Part shown: piece after piece, positions 8,283-35,726 of the stretch
Layout of the letters: each line of letters starts with the position of its first letter
How positions within the stretch are numbered: position 1 is the first letter of the stretch
Source of the DNA: Bacteroidales bacterium
GTDB lineage: Bacteria > Bacteroidota > Bacteroidia > Bacteroidales > UBA7960
Length of the DNA: 64,000 nucleotides
NCBI GenBank assembly: GCA_003559855.1
Contig: PWJZ01000131.1
Span: 1 to 64,000, forward strand
Direction of reading: 5' to 3'
The notes under the pieces: model-generated
What the model saw: the letters and a program-made list of their open reading frames with translations, nothing else
What the model was told of the DNA's origin: nothing
Databases searched by the model: none
Made by a program: the position numbers and the translations under genes

Positions 8283-8515
8283 ATATTTAAGTTATTCAGT
8301 ATTTTAATACGCTAATATAGATATAATTTTAAAATTGTCAAGAAAAAAGATGTTAAATCATTTTAATATTTACCAGGGTTTAATCATCAGTTATAAACAA
8401 ACCAGCTTCAGGGATAATGATTCAGAATATTTTTCCCGGTATTTATTGGCTGTGGGGCCATATAACCGCAGGCTGAAAACCGCCGTATGTTTTTAACCGG
8501 AGACCGGAAGCTCCT

Positions 8516-8541
8516 ATCTTTGTGCCATATGGCATAAAGAT
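8516..8541. repeat. 26-bp near-perfect palindrome
   Basis: ATCTTTGTGCCATATGGCATAAAGAT; one mismatched pair (G/T, wobble in RNA). Confidence 0.85.
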
Positions 8542-8599
8542 TAAATTTGAATATATTTGTTCTTTGACATTTTGTTTTGTAATACAATTGTCTGGGCTT

Positions 8600-8658
8600 T
8601 CGCATTGGAGATGCTTGAAGGGAGGGCGTAGCCCGACCGGAAAGCATCTCCAATGCGA
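8600..8658. repeat. long perfect inverted repeat (17-bp arms) with nested hairpin
   Basis: TCGCATTGGAGATGCTT (8600-8616) and AAGCATCTCCAATGCGA (8642-8658); loop contains GGGC-GTA-GCCC. Confidence 0.93.
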
Positions 8659-8709
8659 GCTGTTTTGATTAAGCATAGTTTCTAATTTTTTCTCAATAGA
8701 TATACCGAT

Positions 8710-9501
8710 ATGATAAACAATTCATCCTTTGAAAGATGGAGTCGTCTTGAAGCAAAAAGCTTAGACAACCAATTCATTAACGCCATCATTAATGGCCTAA
8801 ACTGTTCTTCTTTTGAAGCAAAAGCGGTTTTGGATACTGTTCACAAGGTTTATGGTGACTTCTTTGATTGTTCTTTAGATTTAGCTCCTGGAAAGGCAAA
8901 ATTTATTGTAATCTCAGCTGAAGAATACCCGTCAGTTAAAATATCAGAGGCGAGTATGGTTAGTGTTACCTTAACCATTAATGACGACAAGGAAGACTTA
9001 GCCATAAAGGAAGCTGAAGGTGTGGTTGCCCTTAGACGGCATAGACTCAATCGTATCTGTCATGAAGCCTTCATGCAGGGTGGTTTGCTTACCGTAGAGG
9101 ATATTGCTAATCGCATATTCTGTTGTGGGGAGCGTACCATTGTTCGGGATCTTAAGTATTTGAGAGAAAAAAACATGTTCGTACCGCTTCGTTCAACCAT
9201 TAAAGATATGGGGCGAACCCTTTCTCATCGATCACTTATCATTAAGGAATGGGTTAAAGGAATTGAGTACACTGATATTGCTCGTAAAATCAATCACAGT
9301 ATCAAGGCAATTAGCAACTATGTACACAAATTCAAGCAAGTAGTAGCACTCATGGAAAATGGGTATGATGTCCATACTATTGCTTTTCTAACCAAAATAT
9401 CTAAACAGCTGGCAGAAGAGTATATTGACATAAAAGCCCACTCAGTCATTGTTCCATCACGCAAAGATGAACTTGAGGACTTGTTAAAAAAAAAATGTTA
9501 A
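8710..9501 (+). CDS. DUF1670-like double-HTH protein (copy 1)
   Basis: 263 aa; RRHRLNRICHEAFMQGGLLTVEDIANRIFCCGERTIVRDLKYLREKNMFVPLRSTIKDMGRTLSHRSLIIKEWVKGIEYTDIARKINHSIKAISNYVHKF resembles the DUF1670 pattern. Confidence 0.75.
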   Translation: MINNSSFERWSRLEAKSLDNQFINAIINGLNCSSFEAKAVLDTVHKVYGDFFDCSLDLAPGKAKFIVISAEEYPSVKISEASMVSVTLTINDDKEDLAIKEAEGVVALRRHRLNRICHEAFMQGGLLTVEDIANRIFCCGERTIVRDLKYLREKNMFVPLRSTIKDMGRTLSHRSLIIKEWVKGIEYTDIARKINHSIKAISNYVHKFKQVVALMENGYDVHTIAFLTKISKQLAEEYIDIKAHSVIVPSRKDELEDLLKKKC

Positions 9502-9520
9502 ACCTGTAGAAAAACACAAT

Positions 9521-10288
9521 ATGTTACCAGTTCCTTCTTCAATTAAGCGCTACAAATCTGCTCATAAAAGATTTCTTAAGCCCTCTATAGAGAACTTTTT
9601 CAAAGTGGAGTTCCCGAAGTTTTTTGGCCCAAACACCCGAAGTCTTATCGCAGATGAGTTAATCAAGATTTTTGATGCAAATAACAGGGATATTAATACT
9701 ATAAAGCCAGGACAGGTACTATGGAATGCTGTTCACAAGCATACCAGGGCGGATGCTAAAAACATGAAGCTAATGCCGGTGGTCCTAACCTTAGTTAATA
9801 ATAATGATATTTCCAACCTTAAGAATGGAATGAAAATTTCTGAGCACAAACAAAACGTCGTAGCTAGAATACTTAGAGAAGCATATGAACAAGATGCATT
9901 GCTTTCAATGAGGGATGTAAGCTTGTTGCTTGCTATAGGCGATTCAAGTGCAACTAAAACCAGAAAAAGTTATGAGAAAAGACACCGTGTAGATCTTCCG
10001 CATCCGGGTAACCTTCAGGATATGGGTTCTTGTATTACACATAAGTACCAAATTATTTTCAAGTATGTGGTTGAAAAAAAAGACCCTTTGATAATTGCTA
10101 AGGAAACAAACCATACCATCAAAGCAGTGGATAACTACCTTAGAAATTTTAACAGGGTTAAAACCTTATACCTTGATGGAAAGGATGAAAAATATATTCA
10201 CATAGTAACCAATTTTTCAATAAGCCTTGTAAAACAATATATTAGCATTATAAACCAATGTTTTAAAAAACAAAATGTTGCGGTATGA
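9521..10288 (+). CDS. DUF1670-like double-HTH protein (copy 2, paralogous to upstream ORF)
   Basis: 255 aa; GQVLWNAVHKHTRAD, ILREAYEQDALLSMRDVSLLLA, LQDMGSCITHKYQIIFKYV, IAKETNHTIKAVDNYLRNFNRV aligns by eye with copy 1. Confidence 0.75.
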   Translation: MLPVPSSIKRYKSAHKRFLKPSIENFFKVEFPKFFGPNTRSLIADELIKIFDANNRDINTIKPGQVLWNAVHKHTRADAKNMKLMPVVLTLVNNNDISNLKNGMKISEHKQNVVARILREAYEQDALLSMRDVSLLLAIGDSSATKTRKSYEKRHRVDLPHPGNLQDMGSCITHKYQIIFKYVVEKKDPLIIAKETNHTIKAVDNYLRNFNRVKTLYLDGKDEKYIHIVTNFSISLVKQYISIINQCFKKQNVAV

Positions 10289-10328
10289 TCAGTATATTTA
10301 TTTTTTTTAATAAAATGCATTTTTACTT

Positions 10329-10393
10329 GTTTAGTCATATGGCTCCTCGGAAGTTTCCAACTTCTCCGTATATCCATCTTGGGATATCTAAAC
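10329..10393. other. structured intergenic segment (closing stem plus two hairpins)
   Basis: GTTTAG (10329-10334)/CTAAAC (10388-10393) enclose CGGAAGTT-TCC-AACTTctCCG and ATATCC-atcttg-GGATAT. Confidence 0.5.
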
Positions 10394-10532
10394 GCCTATA
10401 CCTGAAAAAATATAATCGTTATTTGTGGTTATGAGATTTGTACAAGCTCTGCTAAAAAAATCCTTACTTAAATGCATAAATTCATAATTTTGCAGGTAAG
10501 AATTATTACAAAAACTTACATCAAATTCTAAA

Positions 10533-11144
10533 ATGACAAATTTACTTACCATAACCCAGGCAAGTCAATGGGCCTCAGAACATCTCAAAAGAAACATAAA
10601 ACCTTCAAACATATCATATCTTATACAATACGGGCGAATTAAAAAAATTTCTCATAACGTTGTAACATTTGTTAATAAAAAGGCATTGATACACTATTAC
10701 AAAGAATCCTATACAGGTCAACGTGAGATTAACTGGAAGAAAAATCTGGGCGATGATTTAAATTGGCATCTATCCTTTGACTATCTCCGAGAGGCTGACA
10801 CAACAAAACACGTTCACCGTCTGCATCCTTACAAAGGCAAATTTATAGACAAATGGTATTTGCATCCTGTCAGACAGGAGATTGATTTTATGTTTGATCA
10901 GGTCAGGCAAATTAAAGATATTCGAGCAAAAAAAATTGCCAGTATTATTTTAAGTCGTACAATTCGTTCTTGCAGATCAACTACTCATGCTGATTTAGCT
11001 ACACTTAAAGAACCTGTGACTTCAATATACTACTGTAAAAAACACGGAAAGATATGCAAACCACTTTTCTCTATATTAAGCTGGTGGGGAAGGTATTGTC
11101 AGCAAATAATAATTTATTTTTTAAAAATTGAAATTAGATATTAA
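10533..11144 (+). pseudogene. DNA methyltransferase remnant (N-terminal and middle segments joined; SAM-binding core and C-terminus missing)
   Basis: 203 aa; DTTKHVHRLHPYKGKFI joined directly to DKWYLHPVRQEIDFMF...SRTIRSCRSTTHADLATLKEPVTSIYYCKKHGKICKPLFSI; no DPF/GxGT motif. Confidence 0.75.
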
Positions 11145-11148
11145 TGAT

Positions 11149-12060
11149 ATGAAAAATCATGCGAAGTTATTATATAGCTTTTTAGAAAAGCACAAAAAAA
11201 TGGATTTAATGTTGATCCTGTCAAGGTTTTACGATCAAATACTTTTTCAATTAATAATTCCAATGTTTTAATTAGAGTAGCTTCATATCTAGGAAGAAGA
11301 TATTTTTTTTGGATTAAATTACATTAATGCAGAGGAAATTTACAATTTAGATAATTCACTCATTGCATTTATATGCGGAGATATTAATAAAGCAATTTTT
11401 TTACCTTCTGATGTAATAATAAGCCATTTATCACAAATTAGTCACGATAGAAATGGAGAATACAAAATAAATTTCACAAGAGACCTTGAACTAGTATTGA
11501 GAGGAAGATGGAATCGTTTAAATTGCGAACAGTATATTAACAATTGGGATTTAATTTTGAAGCCAACAAAAATTAACGATCAATCATTTAGTGCTGAAGA
11601 AAGTATTCATAGTTTAATTCAAGGTAGAATAATCCAAATAGGAAATATAAGAGGATATGGTACTTATTGTCCAGATAAAAGTAAGACTTTTAATAAGGAG
11701 AAAATAGGAGAGTTGACAACTATAGATAAATGCCCAAATTTACAATATAGTGATTATAATTCACTACGTAATATCGACGTAATATGGTTTAGAAAAGCAA
11801 ATAAAGCTTTATATCCTGAGTATGCATTTGAAGTAGAAATAACAACTGGAGTTTGGTCAGGTTTTGGTAGATTGGCAACTTTAAAGGAATATTCAACAAA
11901 ACTATATGTTATAACCAATGAAAATAAACGTTTCTATCAAGTATTAAATAGTTTTCCAGATATACAAGACCGTTATACAAACGTTATTCCAGAAGATATT
12001 GGTTTATTGTATTCAGCAGAAAATAATTTGATAAAATTAAGAAAAAACATTAATCTTTAA
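11149..12060 (+). pseudogene. restriction endonuclease-like gene (PD-(D/E)XK-like C-terminus) with two homopolymer frameshifts
   Basis: Frame 1 to A7 (11194-11200), frame 0 to T8 (11303-11310), then frame 1 through ORF 11497-12060; IDVIWFRKANKALYPEYAFEVEITTGVWSGFGRLATLKEY. Confidence 0.65.
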
Positions 12061-35210: not shown

Positions 35211-35726
35211 TCAGCGGCGATACGGTTTGCTTACCAGGAAAAATCCTGTAAAAACCAGTGCAAAGGTAACCAGTGAACTTACTATGCTTCGCCACAGTGT
35301 GGCAAAAAATTGCGTGAAGCTGAATGCCTCCAGAAAAAACAAAAAAGTATGGTGTAAAAATATTAGTATAATACTGTAAGTAATCACCCATGAACTATTC
35401 ATATTATGTAAACCGGGAAAAGTTTTCGGTTCAAATTCTTTTTTAACGGATATTACATGTATTACTCCGGGGCGTAAAAATGCCATAAAAAGAGTAGCTG
35501 ATGTATGCAATCCCGCGGTATCACAAAACATATCAATGGTTACTCCCAGTATGAATGCCAGAATAAGCAACAGATATTTAGGTATGTCGAAAGGAAGTAT
35601 CAAAATAAAAAACACATATAAAAACGGATTTATATAACCGCTGATTTGAATCTTATTCAGCACAAAAACCTGTAAAACAACAAGAATAAAAAACCCTGCC
35701 AAGTACTTTAAAATAGTTTTTCGCAT
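35211..35726 (-). CDS. mreD: rod shape-determining protein MreD
   Basis: 171 aa hydrophobic; follows mreC; NKIQISGYINPFLYVFFILILPFDIPKYLLLILAFILGVTIDMFCDTAGLHTSATLFMAFLRP. Confidence 0.85.
   Translation of the reverse strand: MRKTILKYLAGFFILVVLQVFVLNKIQISGYINPFLYVFFILILPFDIPKYLLLILAFILGVTIDMFCDTAGLHTSATLFMAFLRPGVIHVISVKKEFEPKTFPGLHNMNSSWVITYSIILIFLHHTFLFFLEAFSFTQFFATLWRSIVSSLVTFALVFTGFFLVSKPYRR

Follow-up and report, generated by a model that had tools for sequence, protein, structure and literature searches.

A compact, palindrome-ended mobile element encoding a pair of DUF1670 proteins in Bacteroidota

Palindromic ends combined with hairpin-loop targets are reminiscent of the IS200/IS605 and repetitive extragenic palindrome (REP) systems, and some IS110/IS1111 members target hairpin repeats. 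A published account of the IS110/IS1111 insertion sequences describes little or no target duplication and strict target choice, with subterminal repeats in IS1111 (PMC11187229). Here, we analyze an insertion-sequence-like element of ~1.83 kb whose entire coding content is two adjacent genes, A and B, of the family DUF1670 (PF07900). It lies in a 64,000-nucleotide stretch of a Bacteroidales genome (assembly GCA_003559855.1, contig PWJZ01000131.1, positions 1 to 64,000 of the forward strand; hereafter, the window). The best explanation of the data, and one that we hold to be probable, is that the two genes are the whole gene set of a compact palindrome-ended transposable element and jointly act as its recombinase. 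Comparison of sequences establishes the mobility of the element: sites without it were found, identical copies recur within a genome, the ends are conserved, and the choice of target is strict; the first-pass annotation, made from the letters of the window, had listed a mobile unit among its options. The same comparisons establish that A and B always travel together, that the ends are specific to each A/B subfamily, and that insertion takes place at precise sites.

The element in the window and its copies elsewhere

Gene A (8710 to 9501, 263 amino acids) and gene B (9521 to 10288, 255 amino acids) are, as first described, consecutive open reading frames (ORFs) on the plus strand, 19 bp apart. 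The whole element covers about 1826 bp on the same strand (8516 to 10341), with borders that are uncertain within a common 6 bp, GCTCCT. A DNA search with the region revealed that the sequences on either side, at 8462 to 8515 and 10342 to 10415, are the left and right halves of one multicopy repeat of ~130 bp. These flanks are contiguous in uninterrupted copies (L088 to L092) found in the window's own genome (contigs C69 and C108) and in the same-genus genome G002 (contigs C70, C139, C56, and C92), which supplies the empty-site comparison in relatives suggested at first reading. The target site in the empty copies reads GGAAGCTCCTTCGGAAGTTTCC, and the palindrome is absent from them. The hexamer GCTCCT flanks the element as a direct repeat, on the left at 8510 to 8515, where the flank matches overlap in the empty copies, and on the right at 10342 to 10347, with a 2-bp overlap with the right palindrome; the right junction has one base fewer than the empty repeats. 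The repeat itself (the window halves and L088 to L093) is multicopy, intergenic, and common to the genus.

The two palindromes first noted near the pair are real, and a third had gone unlisted. The left end of the element is formed by a 26-bp palindrome, ATCTTTGTGCCATATGGCATAAAGAT, at 8516 to 8541, whose core GCCATATGGC (8524 to 8533) is also present in L061, L062, L063, and L107. The unlisted palindrome, GTCATATGGC at 10334 to 10343, forms the right end and has counterparts in L061 to L063 and in L098. Between the left end and gene A lies an internal hairpin (8600 to 8658) with 28-nt arms, a 3-nt spacer, and GGGCGTAGCCCGA in its upper stem. This upper stem, or a close variant, is kept in L061, L062, L063, and L107 and occurs on the other strand in L056; the lower stems differ among copies, being swapped for other complementary sequences. 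The hairpin may act within the element as a regulatory RNA or offer a site for binding, and a search of the element for known RNAs gave no Rfam match.

The window's genome has a single DUF1670 locus, and DUF1670 was not found in four genomes of the same genus. Across Bacteroidota the family is patchy, with carriers making up 13/397 genomes of the phylum, 17/80 in one family, and 6/393 in the window's order. At every locus with both genes intact, A precedes B on one strand. Copy number can be read from the assembly of G415, which holds three contigs that consist of the element only (C62 and C63, 1737 bp each, and C64, 1722 bp). The 127-bp ends of C64 recur perfectly at 11 other contig ends and those of C62 at 7, and eight further contig ends that fit C62 less well are C63-type ends; this is an assembly signature of dispersed identical copies, indicating at least six for C64, at least four for C62, and at least four for C63. 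In G700, the element is present at two loci at least, with 100% and 99.4% identity over 619 bp. The 1.7-kb units of G415 encode only A and B, with no Y1 protein and no room for a sizeable additional gene. Searches of collections of phages, plasmids, and viruses returned no relatives.

Two helix-turn-helix proteins beside palindromes, seen in the window alone, would also suit a stable chromosomal regulatory pair that controls its neighbors through the flanking palindromes, another of the options first raised. The empty sites, the dispersed identical copies, the patchy distribution (13/397), and the strict target choice all speak against it; this option is left without support, and the multicopy and empty-site data rule it out, so that we give it next to no credence.

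To the right of the element, a partial gene for a type II DNA methyltransferase (10533 to 11144, plus strand; PADLOC MTase_II, 3.9e-73) is followed by a weak match to a type II restriction enzyme (11497 to 12060, plus strand; 6e-5). Together they represent a decayed restriction-modification locus, which is a separate matter from the element beside it. The pair, first described as lying in an accessory island, makes up a complete element in its own right, to which these fragments do not belong.

End palindromes and target sites

In copies with readable ends, a short palindrome lies at each end, close outside the genes, and in all subtypes except one it is centered on CANNTG. A tree of 39 proteins resolves A and B into two clades with strong support, each divided into the same three groups. 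This indicates joint inheritance from a time that precedes the diversification of the family, and the end sequences follow the grouping. The arms are GTATCANNTGATAC or GGTCANNTGACC in group I, CGACANNTGTCG, GGACANNTGTCC, or of the TGCCAAATGTCCCC type in group II, and GCCATATGGC or GTCATATGAC in group III (the window, L061, L062, L063, L098, and L107); the palindrome without the CANNTG core is that of L056, GGAAAATCTTCC. The noncoding DNA on the left is only about 60 nt long in groups I and II.

Group III copies are mostly situated within hairpin repeats. L061 is flanked by ATTCTGCCCC and GGGGCAGAAT, the G700 element lies between CCCCTA and TAAAGGGG arms, and the L107 element splits CCCCTGACGGGG, the unit of a tandem repeat whose neighboring unit is intact. 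For G700 and G750, the two flanks have only CT (or CTA) in common.

The elements of groups I and II have one end immediately 3' of the stop codon that closes an ORF for a protein with a C-terminal sorting domain of the type IX secretion system (T9SS), the protein ending in, for example, KKMILLK. We observe this placement at the terminal Lys-stop of a T9SS cargo (secreted-protein) gene for 30/31 gene-side junctions (14/15 anchored flanked loci, 13/13 gene-side junctions in G415, and 3 further ones in G126), and 10/10 tested ORF ends matched TIGR04183 above the cut-off. At the exception, L050, a DUF4922 gene is split in two (profile positions 1-80 and 74-145; L009/L050), and the antisense DNA there reads AGAAAAATGTTTATTGTA followed across the junction by AAATAA, consistent with the consensus of the other sites; it therefore appears to be the DNA sequence, not the gene, that is recognized. 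DUF1670 matches were also obtained in Methanosarcina acetivorans, a control genome. Archaea are not known to have a T9SS, so the targets in that genome must be of another kind.

The hexamers at the two junctions are informative in G415, where the gene-side hexamer is constant for each element type (AAATAG for C62 and C64, AAATAA for C63) and the far side carries AAR plus a stop codon that varies by copy (AAATAA, AAGTAA, AAATAG, or AAGTGA). Since it is fixed per element type and the far side is variable, the gene-side hexamer looks element-borne, and the element would appear to supply its own AAA-TAA/TAG, so that the protein end is preserved. The two hexamers are identical in L051, L057, L060, and L066 and are 1 or 2 bases apart elsewhere. 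A simple 6-bp target duplication for all groups was considered and rejected: it fits the window (GCTCCT on both sides), but it is contradicted by the G415 hexamers and by the shorter CT (or CTA) shared in G700 and G750. On contig C48 of G415 (L192, positions 1 to 220), a C63-type far-side flank runs into AAATAACGACAAATGT, with which another left end begins; this is apparently an older insertion or a scar at the same gene end.

Palindromes also occur without an element. At five places in G126, a T9SS gene end is followed by an element-type hexamer, one palindrome, and a right-hand tail; on contig C11 of G700, one palindrome lies between flanks identical to those of full copies. Both sets look like scars of palindrome-by-palindrome excision. 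Both G002 and the genome of the window itself (G000, contig C20) also contain window-type palindromes without the element; the one in G000 (L224, C20 positions 35306 to 35320) sits in a 38-nt near-perfect hairpin, GTCCCGATCTTTGTGCCATATGGTGCAAAGATCGGGAC, with no adjacent element. All of these sites, the five in G126, the G700 palindrome with its full-copy flanks, and the element-free palindromes of G000 and G002, could also be taken as unoccupied attachment sites, in which case the palindrome and its short flanks would predate insertion and a circle with one palindrome would integrate by palindrome-palindrome recombination. Such pre-existing sites are hard to reconcile with the uninterrupted copies of the repeat targeted in the window, which have no palindrome, and with the intact neighboring unit of L107, which has CCCCTGACGGGG and no palindrome. 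Furthermore, the solo palindromes match the element type of the same genome, and the exact placement of palindromes at T9SS stop codons would be left unexplained. We consider integration at ready-made palindromes quite unlikely.

The protein pair and how the element may move

Membership in DUF1670, which had been proposed from pattern recognition, is borne out by a profile search in which PF07900 covers both proteins nearly over its full profile, with 147.6 bits for A (4.6e-43) and 165.4 bits for B (1.6e-48) against a curated cut-off of 25 bits. In the tree, the window's proteins fall in the A clade and the B clade, respectively. The two are ancient paralogues, and an alignment of A with B spans 188 amino acids at 28% identity (E=1e-18). 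Residues D96, R115, Q123, H173, H196, Y204, and Y238 (numbered as in A) do not vary in either protein. The first-pass annotation had staked its proposal on DUF1670 matches, on pairs elsewhere being kept as pairs, and on the two proteins aligning, and all three were found. Its remark that the N-termini differ holds in that the N-terminal ends are the least similar part; the N-terminal regions are nonetheless related, as the PF07900 match begins at residue 40-41 in both proteins and the order of secondary structure is identical in AlphaFold models. These models, built from alignments of related loci (mean predicted local distance difference test score [pLDDT] about 80, predicted template modeling score [pTM] 0.46-0.47), have an N-terminal alpha/beta region of ~100 residues and helices after it, which we read as a winged helix-turn-helix and two more helix-turn-helix-like units. 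Ratios of nonsynonymous to synonymous substitution rates (dN/dS) are 0.03-0.17 in pairs whose dS is not saturated, pointing to strong purifying selection on the coding sequences of A and B.

As the first reading had it, no catalytic domain is evident. Searches by sequence and by fold gave no nuclease, transposase, or recombinase catalytic domain in A or B: a DDE domain was found neither among the transposase catalytic profiles of Pfam, NCBIfam, and PHROG nor by fold, and there was no profile match to a DEDD transposase, and no integrase or resolvase catalytic domain, the only hit of this kind being to HTH_7 (the resolvase helix-turn-helix; E 0.038, below the cut-off). The search for a known fold with AlphaFold models and profiles ended in matches that were either helix-turn-helix-like or insignificant. 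Catalysis by A and B is something we infer, as the searches recovered neither a nuclease fold nor that of a recombinase.

In the proposed mechanism, the helix-turn-helix domains of A and B would engage both the target and the palindromes at the element's ends, and the two proteins would jointly perform site-specific insertion. In the T9SS-targeting groups, insertion would occur just before the last Lys codon, with the element's AAA-TAA/TAG staying beside its palindrome, so that the host gene would regain its last lysine and stop codon and the original Lys-stop would be displaced to the far side. The end palindromes might also recombine with each other, removing the element and leaving a solo-palindrome scar. 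Of the heterodimeric recombination or replication factor first suggested, a recombination factor would fit best; replication is without support. Whether the pair is, more specifically, an unprecedented heteromeric recombinase, with no DDE, DEDD, HUH, serine, or tyrosine fold, that combines ~24-bp recognition with last-codon insertion and rebuilding in T9SS genes and with palindrome excision is a question on which we are evenly divided.

Several observations weigh against the pair as the element's own recombinase. Neither A nor B yielded a catalytic domain or fold in the profile and fold searches, the window's own genome has one element copy only, and the solo palindromes could instead be targets. 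Lys-stop restoration is likewise proposed rather than observed, because in G415 the two junctions belonging to a single copy could not be matched up, and an empty allele of a given occupied T9SS gene was not seen. Finally, a Y1_Tnp gene is present in 18/18 carrier genomes tested (carriers only), so that a helper is possible. This last point, together with the lack of a catalytic fold in A and B and the general likeness of palindromic ends and hairpin-loop targets to IS200/IS605 and REP, raises the alternative that the element is moved in trans, for example by an IS200/REP-type Y1 transposase acting on hairpin ends, with A and B as accessory or regulatory palindrome binders. A Y1 gene does adjoin the pair in G050, but it is not part of other element copies; the end palindromes track the A/B subfamily and not the host; the targets of groups I and II are gene ends and not hairpins; and two always-linked proteins are strongly constrained. 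Mobilization in trans is in our judgment unlikely, and A and B as joint recombinase remain the preferred account.

The G050 locus (L003, positions 44 to 400) has its IS200-type Y1 transposase gene directly upstream of the pair, and its right flank is inside another coding ORF. Two other G050 copies of the Y1 gene that were compared belong to different elements, and no empty site was obtained; as a component of the element, the upstream Y1 gene was rejected on account of its absence from other copies.

Comparison with known systems

A and B match DUF1670 nearly over their full length, and the family has no assigned function; neither DUF1670 nor PF07900 is named in any paper of the library searched (5.39 million), and a search there for a connection between transposon targets and T9SS yielded nothing pertinent. 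What is new relative to PF07900 is that there is a mobile element with defined ends and targets and that A is always paired with B. The analysis gives a previously functionless Pfam family a testable function, namely that two paralogous helix-turn-helix proteins, neither with a recognizable nuclease, move DNA, and if the pair is indeed the enzyme, it would constitute a new recombinase class. A target rule of insertion before the terminal Lys codon of secreted-protein genes, which is then restored, would clearly describe a transposable element that leaves the protein-coding genes hosting it unharmed and finds many safe sites in each genome. Genome engineers would take an interest in a sequence-specific system as compact as two proteins and, with respect to annotation, DUF1670 genes mark mobile elements and not regulators.

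With IS110/IS1111, the element shares little or no target duplication and strict target choice. Those seekRNA- or bridge-RNA-guided elements, however, have one DEDD transposase and a long noncoding guide-RNA region, whereas the element described here has two helix-turn-helix proteins, no DEDD domain, and ~60 nt of left noncoding DNA in groups I and II. IS200/IS605 and the REP-associated Y1 systems are similar in their hairpin ends, in having no simple target duplication, and, for the window's group, in their hairpin-loop targets; they differ in that our element encodes no Y1 (HUH) protein and that groups I and II target the end of a coding gene. Like elements of the tyrosine and serine recombinases (e.g., those at tRNA genes), it appears to carry and restore the last bases of its target gene, and the paired A/B paralogues recall XerC/XerD, which is a resemblance only. 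In contrast to such elements, it has no integrase match by sequence or fold, is only 1.7-1.8 kb long, and has numerous targets in a genome where those elements have one.

The unclassified (ISNCY) insertion sequences, among them ISDol1 and ISA1214, are of similar size, and ISA1214 has two ORFs. The transposase catalytic-domain hidden Markov models of digIS include one for ISDol1 (PMC8147514), which implies that ISDol1 has a catalytic domain and is therefore not the same thing; an ISfinder entry of the present type is possible. Two traits of an insertion sequence are present, as the element is a discrete unit with defined ends that is absent from intact target copies and splits a DUF4922 gene, and as it occurs in dispersed near-identical copies within one genome (G415 and G700). 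A transposase of its own would have to be A and B, the only proteins encoded, in which no known transposase domain was detected. The element is an insertion sequence in kind, and within the reach of the tools used here, both its protein pair and its target rule are new.
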